64,000 bases of DNA from Aneurinibacillus soli. Lineage in GTDB: Bacteria; Bacillota; Bacilli; Aneurinibacillales; Aneurinibacillaceae. The notes under the pieces are model-generated. The model was not told the origin of the DNA. It searched no databases and worked only from the letters and a program-made list of their open reading frames with translations. Shown here in pieces: positions 18,167 through 37,467 of the stretch (positions are counted from its first letter, which is position 1; the number at the start of each line of letters is the position of its first letter). A program made the position numbers and the translations under genes. The stretch lies in contig NZ_AP017312.1 of assembly GCF_002355375.1 (NCBI RefSeq), positions 2,311,001 through 2,375,000 of the forward strand, read 5' to 3'.

Positions 18167-18393
18167 TGGTGTTAAATGGGTGTTTTTTGGCTGAATATTG
18201 GTAGGCTGCTTGGATAGAGTGCTTGATGATAGTAGAAGAAGATGAGTAGTCCTTTTTGATTTTCAATAATATAATCTTTATTAGTTTGTAGATTGAAAAA
18301 GTGACGATTTTCTACAAGTTTCAAGGAAAATAGTTCTTCTTGTCGAAGTTTAGCAGTAGATTAAGAAACACTTTTGATAGGGGGAATTATAAG
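18167..18393 (+). other. A+T-rich gap before the TIR gene
   Basis: I see no gene in this 227-bp stretch. It probably holds the promoter of the TIR gene, but no box pair is convincing. Confidence 0.4.
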
Positions 18394-19242
18394 TTGAAGG
18401 TTTTTTTAAGTTGGTCAGGAGAATTAAGTAGAAGGGTGGCTTTAGTCTTTAGAGAATGGTTACCTTCTGTTATACAGGCTGTAGAACCTTATGTTTCCTC
18501 TGAAGATATTGATAAAGGAGCACGTTGGAGTAGTGATATTGCACAAGAACTAGAAGTTTCATCTTATGGTATTATATGTATTACAAAGGAGAATATCGAG
18601 GCTCCTTGGATTAACTTTGAAGCCGGAGCTTTAGCTAAAACATTTGATAAAGCGTATGTTTCTCCTTTTTTATTTGGGATTAAAAGGTTTGAAGTATCAG
18701 GTCCTCTCTTGCAATTTCAATCTACTCTATATGAGAAAGACGATGTGAAGAAATTAATAGATGGTATTAACAAAGCTTGTGATTTACAAGGGCTAGACAG
18801 TTTGAGATTAGATAAGGTATTTGAAATGTGGTGGCCAGCTTTAAAGGAAGAATTAGACAACCTACTTGTCAATAGTGATGATTATTTAATTTCGGATGAG
18901 AAAGAAAATTCTGGCGAAATAAACAGTATGCTTGAGGAGGTTTTGGAGCTTACACGAAATCAGCAAAAGTTACTTCGTTCTCCTCATGATATATTGCCAC
19001 CGGAGTATTTAGCCAAAGTTATAGGGGAGTTAAGCCCTTCTACAGTTCACCCTGGTGCTATTGCTGATTTAAGAAGAGGCTTAACGATAGGTGAAGCTTT
19101 GATTAAAAAATATGAGGAAACACGAGAAATGGATATTAACGAATTTCAACATATGCTTCGTATGTTGAGAAGACCACTGGTTCATTTAACAAAACGAACA
19201 AAACATATCGAACAACGTATACAACTAGAGCTAGATATGTAA
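18394..19242 (+). CDS. TIR-domain protein (putative defence effector)
   Basis: A 282-aa protein from the TTG at 18394 behind AGGGGGA; an earlier in-frame TTG at 18340 is less likely because family members begin MKVFLSWSG. The TIR domain fills residues 1-140 (KVFLSWSGE, SSEDIDKGARW, and INFEAGALAK with the candidate catalytic Glu near residue 76). TIR domains of this kind hydrolyse NAD+ in phage defence. The C-terminal 140 residues have no recognised sensor. It is flanked by terminators, as expected of a cargo gene. Confidence 0.8.
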   Translation: MKVFLSWSGELSRRVALVFREWLPSVIQAVEPYVSSEDIDKGARWSSDIAQELEVSSYGIICITKENIEAPWINFEAGALAKTFDKAYVSPFLFGIKRFEVSGPLLQFQSTLYEKDDVKKLIDGINKACDLQGLDSLRLDKVFEMWWPALKEELDNLLVNSDDYLISDEKENSGEINSMLEEVLELTRNQQKLLRSPHDILPPEYLAKVIGELSPSTVHPGAIADLRRGLTIGEALIKKYEETREMDINEFQHMLRMLRRPLVHLTKRTKHIEQRIQLELDM

Positions 19243-21245: not shown

Positions 21246-21393
21246 CTTTGGCAGCACGAGTTGTCCAGCTACACCCTAGATTACTACATACTATTCCAAC
21301 TGTTGCGTTTGTATGTGAAAAAAATCTACTTTTAATCTACTTTTGTAAATGGACAGGCTTTGGTTGATATGGATGCAAAAAGGGGTGAGAGTC

Positions 21394-21933
21394 TTGGAGA
21401 CGGACAAGCATTTAATCTATATATTTGCGGGTGGAGATGATGCAAGCGCCTATCAGAAGTTGAAGTCTGATGTGGCAGCGAAGGTGTACAGTTGTAGCAC
21501 GCAAGTAAAAGGTGAGGAACTGGACGATATTATACAGGATGCAGCGTTGAAACTGTATTTATCCATTGATAGATATGACAGTAAAAAAGCGGCAGTATCA
21601 ACGTTTCGTGATCACATTATCACAAATGTTTTGATTGACCGGATACGCCGCTGGCGGGCACATAAAAGCCAGGTGTTGACATGGGATGAAGTAGATGAAA
21701 CAGAAGATGGATGTGAGCAAGTAGATTTTGATATGGATTTTGAGCGATGGTTTCGCACGTTGCTTCCACATGAGAAAAAGATTGTACGTATGCGATTGGA
21801 TGGCAAGAAAAACTGTGTAATTGCAGATGAACTGGGATGTTCGAACGCTTCTATTACGGCATATAGGAAAGTGATTCAGAAGAAGTGGAATAGCTTTTTC
21901 TATTATGGGGGAGATGAGAATCATGCAATATAA
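21394..21933 (+). CDS. ECF-like sigma factor
   Basis: A 179-aa sigma-70-family protein. Region 2 is seen in ELDDIIQDAALKLYLSIDRYD and STFRDHIITNVLIDRIRRW; region 4 in LLPHEKKIVRMRLDGKKNCV and DELGCSNASITAYRKVI. There is no region 3, which is the ECF layout. It is a good candidate for reading the eight TGAAA/CGTATA motifs. TTG 21394 is chosen because AAAAGGGG precedes it. It overlaps the next sigma gene. Confidence 0.8.
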   Translation: METDKHLIYIFAGGDDASAYQKLKSDVAAKVYSCSTQVKGEELDDIIQDAALKLYLSIDRYDSKKAAVSTFRDHIITNVLIDRIRRWRAHKSQVLTWDEVDETEDGCEQVDFDMDFERWFRTLLPHEKKIVRMRLDGKKNCVIADELGCSNASITAYRKVIQKKWNSFFYYGGDENHAI

Positions 21934-22792
21934 CGAGCATTTGGGAGATGTAGAAACGTTTGTAGAGAAGAATCAAAAGTTGGTATGGAAATGTGTGCAG
22001 CAGTATAAGATGGTAGCTCGTACAAAGTGTATCGAGTTAGAAGAACTATTTCAGATCGGTATGATAGGAATGTTAAAAGCGTATGAGAAGTACGATCCAA
22101 GTAAATTTGAGAATGTGAACAACTTTACCACATATGGTGTTCCTATGATTCATGGAGAGATTTTACGTTTCTTACGTGATTTCTATCCTGTTAGGGTTCC
22201 TCGTGGAAAAATGGAACTGCTTAGGAAAATACGATGCGCCGGTATGATGAATTTATCTGCTCAGGAGATTGCGGAACATTTCGATGTTTCGGAGAAGGAG
22301 GTAGAACAAGCGCTAGAGATGCGCTATGTAGAGCAGGTTCAATCTATGGATGCAGAGATTATAGATTATGAAAATAAAGAGATTACGCTGCATGACAAAA
22401 TTTCTGTATCGGCCGATTATACAGGTGTGTTCGTGTATGATTTTTTAAAATCGCTATCCGAGCGCGAGCAAACCATCATAGAAATGCGGACATGGGATGC
22501 TACACAGGTGGAAATCGCACAGGCGGTAGGGATAGGTCAGGTTCAAGTATCACGTATGCTGACCAGAATAAAAAATAAGTATCTCGCGTATTGTAACGGG
22601 GAAACGGTTAGTCCTGCGATTGAGCTGCAACGAAAAGTAACACGTGAGCGGTATGAGATAATGGCAGCCGAAGGGAGGAGTAACAAAGAAATCGCGCAGG
22701 AATTCGGATGCCATATTAAAACGCTGAAGCATCATCAAAGAAAGTGGAAGCAAGCGGAACAGGCGGTGGATCTGTATGAAGCCACTGTTTGA
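21923..22792 (+). CDS. Sigma-70 family factor (SigB/SigF-like) with extra HTH
   Basis: A 289-aa protein. Region 2 is LEELFQIGMIGMLKAYEKYD and FTTYGVPMIHGEILRFLRDF; region 3 is LSAQEIAEHFDVSEKEVEQAL; region 4 is LSEREQTIIEMRTWDATQVE and GIGQVQVSRMLTRIKNKY. A further 60 residues add another HTH (AAEGRSNKEIAQEFGCHIKT). It overlaps the ECF-like gene by 11 bases and the methylase by 17. The order suggests a sigma pair expressed together. Confidence 0.85.
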   Translation: MQYNEHLGDVETFVEKNQKLVWKCVQQYKMVARTKCIELEELFQIGMIGMLKAYEKYDPSKFENVNNFTTYGVPMIHGEILRFLRDFYPVRVPRGKMELLRKIRCAGMMNLSAQEIAEHFDVSEKEVEQALEMRYVEQVQSMDAEIIDYENKEITLHDKISVSADYTGVFVYDFLKSLSEREQTIIEMRTWDATQVEIAQAVGIGQVQVSRMLTRIKNKYLAYCNGETVSPAIELQRKVTRERYEIMAAEGRSNKEIAQEFGCHIKTLKHHQRKWKQAEQAVDLYEATV

Positions 22793-23570
22793 TATAGACG
22801 GCAGGAAGTACCGAAAGGTGGGCTTTGTTAACAGATTAATACGTGGTCAAAGGTATAGTACGGTGTATGACTTGTTCATGGGAAGCGGAAGTATCTTGCT
22901 GAACATGGCGTGCAAGGCAGGTGTGTATGCTGGGGTAGATTCTGACCATTTATTAGCGGAATTATACCGTTATATGCTTGTTTGTTCGCCGTTCTTTACA
23001 ACGGAGTTGGCACATGAACGAGCGGTGGAAATGCGTACAAGCCATTATGCTGAATATATAGCTAGTTCACTTAAGGATCGCAGGTTAGTTAAGATTTGTA
23101 TGCGTGATCAGTCTGTAGCAGAAAAGTTCATATTGAGTGTGGTGTTATTGCTGCAGGGTAGGCAGAAGAAGCGATTAATTTTCATGGAGGAAGAGCTTTT
23201 ACGAATTGTACAGTGGCTAAACGAGTTGGTGCGTAAGCTACAAAGTCGTAAATATGCATTCTTAGTAAGCGATTTGGAGGATTTTGCAGGTTGCGTAGCG
23301 GAAACAGAAAATGATTTGTTAATACTCGATCCACCGTGTATTCTGACTGGTGATTCAGAAAGTTATACCAGCACGCATGAGTTTATTCTGTACGATATGC
23401 TGGCGGCAACGAAGAACGATTTCATTTTGTTCGGCCATCTGGAGAGAGATGGCGTTGCGAATGATAAACTACGATATTTCGTAAGGTATTTCGGGCTGAA
23501 AAGCATACATGTACCTGTTGAGGGACCGAGTGATGGTAGATCGGTAGAGGTCATGGTAACGAATATTTGA
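22776..23570 (+). CDS. Dam-like (D12 class) adenine methyltransferase, atypical motif IV
   Basis: A 264-aa protein with motif I DLFMGSGSILLNMA near residue 32 and motif IV ILDPPC near residue 187 in place of the usual DPPY. The scaffold otherwise fits D12-class N6-adenine methylases, which protect phage DNA. The Tyr-to-Cys change in motif IV may alter activity. Translationally overlapped with the sigma gene before it. Confidence 0.7.
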   Translation: MKPLFDIDGRKYRKVGFVNRLIRGQRYSTVYDLFMGSGSILLNMACKAGVYAGVDSDHLLAELYRYMLVCSPFFTTELAHERAVEMRTSHYAEYIASSLKDRRLVKICMRDQSVAEKFILSVVLLLQGRQKKRLIFMEEELLRIVQWLNELVRKLQSRKYAFLVSDLEDFAGCVAETENDLLILDPPCILTGDSESYTSTHEFILYDMLAATKNDFILFGHLERDGVANDKLRYFVRYFGLKSIHVPVEGPSDGRSVEVMVTNI

Positions 23571-26110: not shown

Positions 26111-26956
26111 TTATTTAAAAAGCTTGTTGAAGTCCACTTCAAGCCCCGCCTGTGAGAGTTCACGAGCTAGTTCTATTTCCCAGCTTCCCGCCATGGTTGT
26201 ATATACGACTCCCTGAATATCAGACAGTATTTCAAGGTCTCCCTTTATTAAAGCGCAAACTTTGTTACGACCTAAGCGGCCCATAAAAAAGCCTAATTCA
26301 AAGATAACATTTTGCCTTGCACGACTTTTAGCTTCTTCAGGCTGTTCTTTTTTATAACCTATATCGTCAGGGGTTAAAAGCACTATTGCAAATGAGACAT
26401 CTGAGTTAGCTTCAAACTTCTCAATAATAGTTCTCCCCTGATTAGCTTGTTCATGTAGGATAACAGGTTCAAAGTCTAATTTCTCTAGAAACCTAGTTAC
26501 AGTCAGCTTTGTTTCGTTATCTTGTCCATGAACAATGAAGATTTTACGGTTACTGGTTACTGGATTTTGAGGAATGTCACTTTCGTAATCGACCTGGATA
26601 GCTTCAGTATAAAGTTCTAGTCTATGTAAAATAGATTCTAATCTTTCAACTTTTTCGTTAGCATCTTTCCTGAAATCTTTTACTTCATCCTGAAAAGTAT
26701 AATCACCCATTATCATAAAAGGACCAACGTAGTTATATTCTTCTGCTATGGAATCGTCACTAAAAAGAGTGAGTAATAAATCATAATTATAATTGCTCCA
26801 TTTTGTCTTTTCACTTTCTGCTTTTCGGAGGTCTTCTTGACCATATATAGAGAAATCTCCTAGTTGCTTACCTTTTTCAATTTGTTTAAGAATTTTATTA
26901 GCGGCCTCTTCTCTAGAAACATTGAGCGAGGGGAGTTTCCTGCTTTTCTTGGTCAT
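26111..26956 (-). CDS. TIR-like nucleotide-binding protein (PF10137 type)
   Basis: A 281-aa minus-strand protein. The first 130 residues are helical and unassigned. Residues 138-265 form a TIR-like domain: RKIFIVHGQDNETKLTVTRF, ILHEQANQGRTIIEKFE, VSFAIVLLTPDDIG and NVIFELGFFMGRLGR with Glu 220. This family occurs as NAD-degrading effectors of CBASS (Cap12) and Pycsar systems, but no cyclase gene is near. It is flanked by its own terminator and lies against the phage strand, so it is a cargo gene. The start ATG follows AGGGAGG. Confidence 0.8.
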   Translation of the reverse strand: MTKKSRKLPSLNVSREEAANKILKQIEKGKQLGDFSIYGQEDLRKAESEKTKWSNYNYDLLLTLFSDDSIAEEYNYVGPFMIMGDYTFQDEVKDFRKDANEKVERLESILHRLELYTEAIQVDYESDIPQNPVTSNRKIFIVHGQDNETKLTVTRFLEKLDFEPVILHEQANQGRTIIEKFEANSDVSFAIVLLTPDDIGYKKEQPEEAKSRARQNVIFELGFFMGRLGRNKVCALIKGDLEILSDIQGVVYTTMAGSWEIELARELSQAGLEVDFNKLFK

Positions 26957-29594: not shown

Positions 29595-29651
29595 ATGGGT
29601 ATGGAACCACGCATGACAATCCAGCAGAACGCGAAACAAAATAAAAATTGA
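29595..29651 (+). CDS. Tiny ORF before spoVS
   Basis: An 18-codon frame (MGMEPRMTIQQNAKQNKN) that follows AGGAGTAGATCGTG and ends just before the SpoVS gene. It could be a leader peptide or chance. Low confidence. Confidence 0.25.
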   Translation: MGMEPRMTIQQNAKQNKN

Positions 29652-29665
29652 TGGGGGTAAATAAC

Positions 29666-29926
29666 ATGGAAATCTTAAAAGTTTCAGCAAAGTCGAATCC
29701 GAATTCTGTAGCAGGGGCATTGGCAGGTGTTCTTCGTGAACGTGGTTCTGCTGAGATGCAAGCAATCGGGGCAGGGGCATTGAACCAGGCAGTTAAAGCT
29801 GTCGCCATCGCACGTGGATTTGTAGCACCAAGTGGAGTAGATCTAATCTGCATCCCAGCTTTCGCGGATATTATGATTGATGGGGAAGAACGGACGGCGA
29901 TTAAGCTGATTGTTGAGCCACGGTAA
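29666..29926 (+). CDS. spoVS: Stage V sporulation protein S homologue
   Basis: An 86-aa protein nearly identical, as far as I can recall the sequence, to B. subtilis SpoVS: MEILKVSAKSNPNSVAGALA, then LRERGSAEMQAIGAGALNQ, VAIARGFVAPSGVDLICIP and DGEERTAIKLIVEPR. SpoVS is a small Alba-like protein affecting late sporulation (cortex and coat) and dehydration resistance in Bacillota. A copy inside a prophage is unusual. The start follows GGGGGTAA and the gene ends with its own terminator. Confidence 0.97.
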   Translation: MEILKVSAKSNPNSVAGALAGVLRERGSAEMQAIGAGALNQAVKAVAIARGFVAPSGVDLICIPAFADIMIDGEERTAIKLIVEPR

Positions 29927-29978: not shown

Positions 29979-30005
29979 TAGATATTCTTAACAGGAGATG
30001 TAGCC

Positions 30006-31370
30006 ATGACAAACGAGGAGATGATTGCAAGGGCTAGAGCAGGAGATGAGTCAATATTTGAGGAATTTTTCACTAAAAACGAGCCTTTCACTTATCACAT
30101 TGCGCGAAAGTTTTCGAATACAGGGTTGGATGTTGAGGATTTAGCGTCAATAGCAAAGGTAGGAATGCTGAAGGCGTACCATTCATTTGATCTGGATAAA
30201 GCCATTAAGTTCGCTACTTATGCGGCACGGTGTATGTCGAATGAGATTCTGATGTTTCTACGGAAGAATAATAAGCATATAGGATTGGTGAGTCTGGATG
30301 CAGCGCTGAACATTGATTTTGATGGCAATGAATTGACACTGGCTGATGTACTGGAAGATACGTCTGCGCTAACACCGGATTCCAGGGTTATGAGTGAAGC
30401 GTTAATGAAGGTGACGGAAGGGTTTCTTCAGACGTTGTCGGAGAGGGATCGAGGAATCTTCTTGTCATGCGTAGTTGAGGAGAAGAAACAGGATCATATC
30501 GCAAGTGAATTTGATATTTCGCAATCGTATATTTCGAGATTAGTTAAACGCTTGATTAAAAAGTTTCAAAAATATGCACGTAGAGTAGGTTTTATTGACG
30601 GTCAGGAGAATATGACAGCGAAGCAAATTGAATTAGGAGATGAAGCACAGGAGGAGACTAACGTGAAAGCGTGGCAATGTGCGGAGTGCGGTTCTGACAA
30701 TAAACCGGCTGGCGCGGGATCAAATACAACACTTTGCAGGTCATGTCGAAGCGAAAAAATGCGGCAAGGTAAAAAAGAATATGAAATCTCCTGTGTCGAA
30801 TGTGGTGAAATATTTATAGCAAGGTCGAAGATAGCAAAGTATTGTACGCAGTGCAAGGAGAACAAGCAAAGTGGAAAAGTAGATGACACGCAAGCAAAAC
30901 AAGTTCCAGTATACGTTCATTCAGATGTAGAAGGAGATGGTAAAGTGGAATATGTACAAGTACCAGCAAATGAAACAGAAAGTGTGATCTATCCTCTGAG
31001 CAAGGTTGCGGAGCAGTTGAGAGTGTCTACAAGCGCATTACGTAAATGGTGCATGGGTTTGGAAAAGCAAGGATATGTATTCAAGGATAATTCTGGAGCT
31101 GGGCGTTTTATGAATAGCCAGGATATTTTCATGCTGCGGCAGATACAGAAGAAGATGGGAAAAGGTACATCTATTGAAGAAGTGGTAACGGATGTGCTAG
31201 CTCGTTACGGTAAAAGAAAAGAGGACGGAGAGACGGCATTTCATCGCTTAATGCGTGGAGATACTCTATACTTGTCAGCGCAAGATGCACGTAAGATATG
31301 CGAAGCGCTGGATGTGCTGGGTGTTTGCTATGATCAGGAGAATGTGACAGCACTAAAAATGCTAGGTTAA
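30006..31370 (+). CDS. SigK/SigE-like sigma factor fused to zinc ribbons and MerR-like domain
   Basis: A 454-aa protein with three parts. Residues 1-190 are a sigma-70 factor like sporulation SigK/SigE: FATYAARCMSNEILMFLRKN and LSERDRGIFLSCVVEEKKQD, with SQSYISRLVKRLIKKFQKY as region 4. Residues 222-282 hold two zinc ribbons (CAEC/CRSC and CVEC/CTQC). Residues 325-405 form a MerR-type helix-turn-helix (LSKVAEQLRVSTSALRKWCM). I know of no sigma factor with this layout. Starts at ATG 30006 after CAGGAG. Confidence 0.75.
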   Translation: MTNEEMIARARAGDESIFEEFFTKNEPFTYHIARKFSNTGLDVEDLASIAKVGMLKAYHSFDLDKAIKFATYAARCMSNEILMFLRKNNKHIGLVSLDAALNIDFDGNELTLADVLEDTSALTPDSRVMSEALMKVTEGFLQTLSERDRGIFLSCVVEEKKQDHIASEFDISQSYISRLVKRLIKKFQKYARRVGFIDGQENMTAKQIELGDEAQEETNVKAWQCAECGSDNKPAGAGSNTTLCRSCRSEKMRQGKKEYEISCVECGEIFIARSKIAKYCTQCKENKQSGKVDDTQAKQVPVYVHSDVEGDGKVEYVQVPANETESVIYPLSKVAEQLRVSTSALRKWCMGLEKQGYVFKDNSGAGRFMNSQDIFMLRQIQKKMGKGTSIEEVVTDVLARYGKRKEDGETAFHRLMRGDTLYLSAQDARKICEALDVLGVCYDQENVTALKMLG

Positions 31371-31371
31371 A

Positions 31372-31402
31372 ACCAAGCCGGGGCCATGCCTCGGTTTTTT
31401 GT
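31372..31402 (+). terminator. Terminator
   Basis: AACCAAGCCGGGG pairs with CCTCGGTTTTTT imperfectly; six T close the unit of the fusion gene. Confidence 0.6.
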
Positions 31403-31761: not shown

Positions 31762-32475
31762 ATGAATAAGGAGATTTTTGAACGGTGTAAAGTAGATAAA
31801 TTATATTTAGAACAATTTATGCGGGAGAACGAGAATCTAATCTGGTTCTCGATCCGCAAATATATTGGGGAGCCAGCAGAAGTAGCAGACAAGTATCGAA
31901 TTGATAAAGATGATTTGCTGCAGCTTGGGAGGCTGGCGATGTTGAAGTGTATCAAGCGATTTGACCCGGACCGAAGAGTGAAGTTCAGCTCATTCACGGT
32001 AACGGCCATCGTTAGAGAAGTACGATGTTTCCTGCGTGACAAAACTAGTGTGATTCGACCAACACGTTCGGCCAGTGAGCTGTTGAATCGGATTAAGCAG
32101 ACGATATGCGAGTTGGAATATGTACCATCTACACGCGATATTGCGGAACTGCTGGACGTAGATGAGCAGCGGGTTGTAAAAGCCATGAAAGTAGCAGGAG
32201 ATACCGTATATGCTGAATTTGATATGCCGATACCGAAACGAGCAGAAGATGATGTGATAGACAGTATGTATACGCAGGAAATATTGCAGGATATGGCGTG
32301 TCGTATGACGGATGTAGAGTTTAACATTGTGCTCGGGAGACTGAATGGTATGTCTTATAGGCAGCTATCTGAGAAGTGTAAAGTATCGAAGAAAGCAGTA
32401 GTTCGAACGATGAGGAAGGCTAGGGAGGTGCTACGAGATGTGTATACTCTAATGAATGAGTTGGACAAGGATTGA
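31762..32475 (+). CDS. Sigma-70 family factor (SigF/SigB-like)
   Basis: A 237-aa protein with region 2 (DKDDLLQLGRLAMLKCIKRF, FSSFTVTAIVREVRCFLRDK), region 3 (PSTRDIAELLDVDEQRVVKA) and region 4 (MTDVEFNIVLGRLNGMSYRQ, CKVSKKAVVRTMRKAREVL). It is a third separate sigma gene beside those at 21394 and 21923. ATG 31762 follows AAAGGAG. Directly precedes the lysis module, so it may drive lysis or late genes. Confidence 0.82.
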   Translation: MNKEIFERCKVDKLYLEQFMRENENLIWFSIRKYIGEPAEVADKYRIDKDDLLQLGRLAMLKCIKRFDPDRRVKFSSFTVTAIVREVRCFLRDKTSVIRPTRSASELLNRIKQTICELEYVPSTRDIAELLDVDEQRVVKAMKVAGDTVYAEFDMPIPKRAEDDVIDSMYTQEILQDMACRMTDVEFNIVLGRLNGMSYRQLSEKCKVSKKAVVRTMRKAREVLRDVYTLMNELDKD

Positions 32476-36297: not shown

Positions 36298-37467
36298 CTA
36301 TAATCTTTCAGCAACCTCATAAACGACATTAATGGTCACACTGTTTCCTGACTGCTTATAAAGCTGGCTATCTGAATTTACCTGCTGTGCTTTATCGAAT
36401 GCCCAATCAGGAAAACCTTGTAATCGCCAGCACTCTCGTGGAGTTAGCTTTCTAATCTTCGCACCTTTTAGTAGGTGGTTATTTTGCTCGTAGCTGTTTT
36501 TTGTGAGCGTTGGTGCTATTTCGTGTAAACCACCTTCGTTAAAACCACGCCCTCGTTGTAAAATCCCCGTTCTCGCTCCGTGATTATCCAGTCCTTTGTA
36601 GTACGATGCAGGCAGACAAGTTGACATATTATCATCACGTAATTTCAATTCACCATTCACAACCAAGCATGGAACTTTATCCAATCGCGTAGCTTGTAAT
36701 GTTCCTGTTTCGTCTTCCTTTACAGTAACTGAGCATCCGTGTGTTTTCTGAATCACTACCGCTTTCGATTCGTCTACCATGTACAACCCTGTTTTCGCTC
36801 CCAGTCCTCCACCTTCTGATTTCAGTGTTCTGGCTAATCCGTTTGCATCGTACACCCTATGAGCGTCAGATACACCTTTGGTTAACTCCTTTAATTTCTT
36901 TTCGTTTTGGACAACAGCTTCCCCGTCTGCTCTGATGATAGGAAATACTTCTCTGGTACTTGCTCCTCTAAGATGTCCGATAATGAACACGCGCTCCCTG
37001 TTTTGCGGGACTCCGAAATCTTTGCTGTTAAGCACTTGCCATTCCGCATCGTACCCCAGTTCATCCAACGTGTTGAGGATAACTCGGAAAGTCTCCCCCC
37101 CTGCGTGATTGAGCAAGCCTTTGACGTTTTCAAGAAATAGATATTTGGGTTTAATGATCGATGCGAAACGAGCGATTTCAAAAAAGAGAGTTCCGCGAGT
37201 ATCACTGAATCCCCCACGTTTTCCTGCAATGCTAAAAGCTTGGCAAGGGAATCCGCCGCAGATGACATCGATACCTCTTCCTGCAAGCAATCGAAGATCG
37301 TCATCTGATACACTAGTGATGTCATGTGCTGTCCACTCCCCTTCTGTATCATGTATAGCTTCGTAAGACTTACGGGCGAATTTGTCTATTTCTACATAGC
37401 CAACGCAACTATGTCCTGCCATTTCCATCCCGAGTCTAAATCCACCGATTCCAGCAAATAAGTCCAA
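36298..37467 (-). CDS. C5-cytosine DNA methyltransferase
   Basis: A 389-aa enzyme with all conserved motifs: DLFAGIGGFRLG (I), GGFPCQAFSIAG with the catalytic Cys (IV), LFLENVKG (VI), QNRERVFIIG (VIII) and the final YKQSGNSVTINVV (X). It methylates cytosines in a sequence set by the region around residues 230-330. The listed start is TTG 37467, but that lies far from GGGGGGTG; an AUA at 37476 would give the usual MKFLDLFAG and a good spacing. No restriction enzyme gene is adjacent. Confidence 0.95.
   Translation of the reverse strand: MDLFAGIGGFRLGMEMAGHSCVGYVEIDKFARKSYEAIHDTEGEWTAHDITSVSDDDLRLLAGRGIDVICGGFPCQAFSIAGKRGGFSDTRGTLFFEIARFASIIKPKYLFLENVKGLLNHAGGETFRVILNTLDELGYDAEWQVLNSKDFGVPQNRERVFIIGHLRGASTREVFPIIRADGEAVVQNEKKLKELTKGVSDAHRVYDANGLARTLKSEGGGLGAKTGLYMVDESKAVVIQKTHGCSVTVKEDETGTLQATRLDKVPCLVVNGELKLRDDNMSTCLPASYYKGLDNHGARTGILQRGRGFNEGGLHEIAPTLTKNSYEQNNHLLKGAKIRKLTPRECWRLQGFPDWAFDKAQQVNSDSQLYKQSGNSVTINVVYEVAERL

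Follow-up and report, generated by a model that had tools for sequence, protein, structure and literature searches.

Sigma factors are usually viewed as single polypeptides that read two promoter elements. In the type I-D CRISPR effector protein Cas10d, which is unrelated to the sigma factor described here, an internal start gives extra copies of the C-terminal domain (the small subunit) that join the complex. A parallel established by experiment is that of the two-polypeptide endolysins, lysis enzymes in which an in-frame internal Shine-Dalgarno (SD) sequence and a start codon at the domain border are used to make a free C-terminal domain; both products have been demonstrated, and long and short forms can associate, in one case at 1:5 (PMC9430671). 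Phages also carry sporulation-type sigma factors (Eldridge g168/g169, Goe3, and SP10), of which Eldridge g169 switches on sporulation genes in Bacillus subtilis, acts there much like SigF, and cuts spore yield by 99% (PMC9429907). We take g169 to be Eldridge_0172, a 506-aa protein with an extension, from gene order and identity to SigF. A text search of PMC9429907 showed that the words "C-terminal" and "extension" do not occur in it, and no report of internal starts in phage sigma genes was found in the literature, our coverage of which was incomplete. Here we describe a gene in a 64,000-nucleotide stretch of the Aneurinibacillus soli genome (the window, i.e. the whole stretch of DNA that was analyzed) that resembles both systems. 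Like the phage sigmas it is phage-borne and of sporulation type, and, as in the endolysin genes, a domain border in it is marked by an internal SD and an in-frame start codon, but the protein is a sigma factor instead of a lysis enzyme and the second product is a prediction instead of an experimental result. With Eldridge g169 it shares the long C-terminal extension and the border internal SD, the DNA-binding domain of the extension being different. Phage sigma factors and genes with two in-frame products are already known kinds; new is the exact layout of this gene in its detail. The association between extension and internal start across phage sigmas, which we report below, is the more general and more interesting result than this layout alone.

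The gene, which we refer to by its first position in the window as the 30006 gene, forms one stop-free frame, the other two frames of the same strand containing 37 and 41 stops, and its GC3 is similar between the sigma and C-terminal parts; the genome that contains it was assembled as a single contig of 4.12 Mb. An earlier note, made from the letters of the DNA and their open reading frames, had read here a sporulation-type sigma factor joined in one frame to two zinc ribbons and a MerR-like domain, and had named a frameshift or assembly error joining two genes, or failure of the first part to match the sigma region 2 and 4 profiles, as what would speak against this. Its coordinates and sigma-fusion layout were right. 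The coding signal is continuous and the genome a single contig, and an erroneous join does not apply as far as testable; both regions score above the curated Pfam cut-offs (Table 1), and TIGR02937 gives 96.9 bits (cut-off 42.9), which places the protein in the sigma-70 family. Further, Foldseek aligned region 2 with the N-terminal domain of SigE (8b3z) at an rmsd of 1.8 over 78 columns, and the AlphaFold model of the protein has a pLDDT mostly of 90-98 in the sigma domains. The sigma part shares 45-47% identity with the SigE encoded in this genome, has the region 4 stretch SQSYISRL in identical form, resembles SigE in the promoter-reading segments, and, as in SigE and SigK, region 3 is absent. 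It differs from the sporulation sigma factors SigE and SigK (TIGR02835 and TIGR02846) in having no pro-sequence and in carrying about 260 (259) extra C-terminal residues. We rejected SigE proper and SigK proper as assignments because the NCBIfam scores were too low (161.9 vs 339 and 151.1 vs 348.6 for SigE; 136 vs 252 and 134 vs 298.65 for SigK). One motif search of the window for the SigE/K-like -10 element gave 2 matches against 2.2 expected. By homology, we conclude that the 30006 product is a prophage-encoded sigma factor of the SigE/SigK type.

Table 1. Features of the 30006 gene and its neighborhood (positions in the window)
Feature	Position	Strand	Basis or remark
Whole sigma-fusion gene, 454 aa, including stop codon	30006..31370	+	ORF; own SD AGGAG at 29993-29997
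Sigma region 2, aa 22-90	30069..30275	+	Pfam PF04542 (Sigma70_r2), 7.7e-17, 61.3 bits, cut-off 24
Sigma region 4, aa 141-186	30426..30563	+	Pfam PF04545 (Sigma70_r4), 3e-6, 27.1 bits, cut-off 24.1
Internal SD 1, AGGAGG, -10.3 kcal/mol	30649..30654	+	SD scoring
Putative internal start GTG, aa 220; predicted product 235 aa (zinc ribbons, MerR-like domain, tail)	30663..30665	+	inferred
Predicted zinc-ribbon motif 1 (C225, C228, C244, C247)	30678..30746	+	CxxC...CxxC motif
Predicted zinc-ribbon motif 2 (C263, C266, C280, C283)	30792..30854	+	CxxC...CxxC motif
Internal SD 2, AAGGAG, -9.3 kcal/mol	30931..30936	+	SD scoring
Putative internal start GTG, aa 314; predicted product 141 aa (MerR-like domain, tail)	30945..30947	+	inferred
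MerR/RacA-like DNA-binding domain, aa 325-411	30978..31238	+	phrog_3470, 1.9e-11; alignment with stand-alone relatives; RacA by profile
C-terminal tail module, about aa 410-452 (last ~45 aa)	31233..31361	+	common to phage sigma-HTH protein of viral contig L154
Terminator-like hairpin behind the 30006 gene	31375..31397	+	count of such sites in region not above chance
SpoVS-like gene, just upstream of the 30006 gene	29648..29926	+	Pfam SpoVS, 2e-39
Second sigma gene, SigF/B-like	31762..32475	+	domain/profile matches
Small sigma-like gene	21349..21933	+	Sigma70_r2, 7e-10
SigF/G-type sigma gene, short C-terminal HTH extension, no border SD	21905..22792	+	internal contrast

The domains that follow the sigma part were read by the earlier note as two zinc ribbons and a MerR/RacA-type domain. 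For the former, the two CxxC-pair motifs are indeed present, but no zinc-ribbon profile matched the protein at its cut-off, and we describe them as predicted zinc ribbons with two CxxC pairs each. For the latter, Pfam MerR_1 reached 18.0 bits and stayed below its cut-off of 21.6, but phrog_3470 matched, and a profile of the stand-alone MerR-like relatives matched RacA (5i41) at 4.5e-5. RacA and the MerR-like/DUF3967 proteins of phrog_3470 belong to the same winged HTH family as the 30006 domain, but the known phrog_3470 relatives are stand-alone genes, often with DUF3967, whereas the 30006 domain is fused behind a sigma factor and zinc ribbons. In the AlphaFold model, pLDDT is 60-82 in the MerR-like domain and below 50 at aa 212-220 and 292-325, and it is these low-confidence linkers that hold both putative internal starts. 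A structure prediction of the MerR-like part by itself, run with no alignment, was poor (pLDDT 46) and was discarded. The tail module, which together with the internal start sites is an addition to the earlier description, is 40% identical over 43 aa to the tail of the L154 protein (3e-10 in a pairwise comparison), and no convincing further relatives of it were found in the genomes or phages searched. We also note a similar short strand-helix-strand-like stretch in the last 50 aa of other sigma extensions (L065, L068, L070, L072, L100, L103, L125, L126, L127, L159, and the Eldridge protein), which is perhaps an assembly module; its profile was built from those same sequences, which leaves a common origin unproven, and does not match the 30006 tail.

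The earlier note knew of no described sigma factor with this layout and proposed a search for the same architecture in other phages. For the exact layout the claim held. No fusion with the C-terminal half of the 30006 protein was found in genomes of the genus and the order, in 400 genomes of the class, or in phage records; the same layout was not found in viral contigs searched with the whole protein; a viral scan with the MerR-like domain returned no relative; and the data searched contained no 30006 orthologue. What the searches with the C-terminal half and the whole protein brought up was limited to MerR-like proteins that stand alone and to unrelated zinc ribbons, and the one genome-contig match (L009) turned out to be an ordinary SigE-SigG gene pair and not a fusion. 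For the general kind the claim did not hold, because phages of Bacillota commonly encode sigmas to which further C-terminal domains, mostly DNA-binding ones, are attached (35 genes in 20 clusters), the extension usually having at least one HTH domain (Goe8, f2b1, Eldridge, Moonbeam, P59, LysYB2, Hayley, and metagenomic contigs). This set was gathered by scans with sigma alignments and from phage records, with selection by sigma similarity and not by SD, and the long-extension class comprises genes with at least 100 aa after region 4, grouped at 45% identity. With its prophage setting, its sigma domain, and its 259-aa extension, the 30006 gene falls into this class. In viral contig L137 (1895-3790), a 632-aa frame holds two complete sigmas (one of SigE/K type and one of SigF/G type) and two HTH modules, with an SD and ATG before each later module. 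In L131 (3224-3592), L160, L162, L164, and L177, an extension of ~125 aa of the type found in Paenibacillus phage sigmas has no Pfam match and is preceded by a near-perfect internal SD (GGGAGG).

In the 30006 gene itself, each of the two internal SDs listed in Table 1 precedes an in-frame GTG at a spacing of 8 nt. When SD strength is expressed as a simple duplex energy, which is not a full initiation model, both outscore the SD of the gene's own start (-7.4) and occupy ranks 1 and 2 among 29 internal sites. The gene accordingly has what in sequence terms would mark in-frame internal initiation, namely a strong SD and a start at a domain border. GTG is the putative start codon at both sites, the local fold around the first is more stable than that at 85% of codons, and a synonymous shuffle of this gene alone gave p values of 0.089 and 0.116 for its two sites. 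Taken alone, the 30006 gene makes a suggestive case for internal initiation.

Among the 20 long-extension clusters, 16 have their best internal site at the sigma/extension border, compared with 3.98 expected (Poisson-binomial P = 3e-9), and the remaining 4 have it elsewhere; the combined synonymous-codon shuffle gave P = 1.2e-4. Border sites of -9 kcal/mol or stronger occur in 60% of long-extension genes compared with 3.1% of random windows in control ORFs, and in 12 of the 20 clusters when scored in frame compared with 2 of 20 and 0 of 20 in the shifted frames. Sigmas that have no extension or one of less than 100 aa lack such border sites. We note that, in a first small set in which short- and long-extension genes were mixed, the synonymous shuffle was not significant (Fisher p = 0.11, 13 tests); the sample was then enlarged by two scans, and the split at 100 aa was made after the first set had been seen. 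Further, the border interval was initially set at -5 to +60 codons relative to the end of region 4, and its lower bound was moved to -8 once L159 had been seen; starting from -5, the border holds the best site in 15 of 20 clusters instead of 16. With an interval of 0 to +60 the excess is smaller (0.40 vs 0.16), other bounds give similar results, and the upper bound is not decisive. We conclude that long C-terminal extensions of phage sigmas go together with a predicted internal translation start and that the genes of this class probably encode both the sigma fusion and a free copy of the C-terminal domains.

For the 30006 gene, we favor on balance a reading in which both the protein and its translation are modular, giving a SigE/SigK-type sigma fusion as well as free C-terminal forms. 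The 454-aa product would associate with the RNA polymerase of the host and guide it to promoters that are presumably SigE/SigK-like. The border SDs with their in-frame GTGs would also yield free C-terminal proteins of 235 and 141 aa, as suggested by the DNA signals and by their recurrence in phage sigma genes. These free forms would most probably recognize the same DNA sites as the sigma-tethered copy and pair with it and, more speculatively, might anchor the sigma at phage promoters or compete with it. Because MerR-type domains act as dimers and only one sigma is present per RNA polymerase, the tethered domain could form its dimer with a free copy at a phage operator. In its widest form, which we hold with slightly less than even confidence, the proposal is that a widespread class of phage sigma genes encodes a sigma-DNA-binding fusion and the same module free, that the free module assembles with the tethered copy to build or switch off phage-specific promoter complexes, and that the 30006 gene is a three-product version with two internal starts. 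If true, phages would have a compact means of producing, from one mRNA and hence in a fixed ratio, a promoter-choosing factor and the protein that partners or competes with it. Further, the earlier expression of Eldridge g169 (PMC9429907), the gene having an internal site, may then have made two proteins.

The model of the earlier note corresponds to a single product of 454 aa, in which the zinc ribbons and MerR-like domain provide a second DNA contact and the sigma is active solely, or most strongly, at phage promoters that have an additional site; the internal SDs would then be unused. The frame that is open throughout, the complete domains joined by flexible linkers in the AlphaFold model, and the weak p values of the 30006 gene itself are all consistent with it, and plain fusions do exist, namely the short-extension phage sigmas, in which an additional HTH comes with no internal SD. 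We nevertheless think a single product rather unlikely, as the border SDs are stronger than that of the gene's own start and the family-wide border excess is very improbable by chance. In particular, the notion that the sigma acts only at promoters with an extra site is weakened by the internal start sites, which suggest separate production of the DNA-binding part as well.

Conservation of the sites bears on a second alternative, which is that adjacent sigma, zinc ribbon, and MerR cistrons recently lost their stop codons and that the ribosome-binding sites are functionless leftovers of this fusion. The sites do stand where the cistron starts would have been, the MerR-like domain has its relatives in genes of their own, and the L137 fusion, with an SD before each module, is in line with such a history. 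However, Goe8 and f2b1 both keep AGGGAGGAAAAnAAnATG though their C-terminal proteins are only 27.5% identical, and, in spite of strong divergence, Eldridge, L123, and Moonbeam keep the SD and start with a changed linker, the start codon going from ATG to GTG in Moonbeam. Further, the site is lost where the tail is lost. The gene order of the L154 contig resembles window positions 21349-23570, and its sigma-HTH-tail gene and the 21905 gene of the window share 49% identity; the L154 gene has both tail and border site and the 21905 gene has neither, so that in this comparison tail and internal start are present or absent together, and the tail module is present on the 30006 gene. We therefore regard functionless leftovers as improbable. 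That an assembly or sequencing error (a missed stop or a frameshift) joined separate genes is hardly credible, because, although no orthologue of the same layout was found, the coding signal is continuous, the genome consists of one contig, and fusions of a similar kind are present in many phage assemblies that are independent of each other.

The surroundings of the 30006 gene are a prophage, with genes for virion structural proteins upstream and with genes for a DnaB-like helicase, a Holliday junction resolvase, an ArpU-like late regulator, an endolysin, and a serine integrase among its content. It contains three further sigma-like genes (at 21349, 21905, and 31762), the first two of which overlap and form a cluster at 21349-22792; in the related viral contig L154 (1305-4170), four sigma-like genes lie within 3 kb. 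The SpoVS-like gene is a second sporulation-related prophage gene beside the sporulation-type sigma gene. SigE, SigG, and SigK-like genes are present in the host, which marks it as a spore former. A second, truncated host sigE copy is found at G000:C1 about 3742278 (L063 3723-4085); it encodes 124 aa, has its own SD, and ends at a TAG inside the gene. The prophage also has a DNA cytosine methyltransferase gene (window 36298-37467, minus strand) and two TIR-domain genes (26111-26956 on the minus strand and 18340-19242), which match the anti-phage defense models PDC-S35 and TIR-TM.
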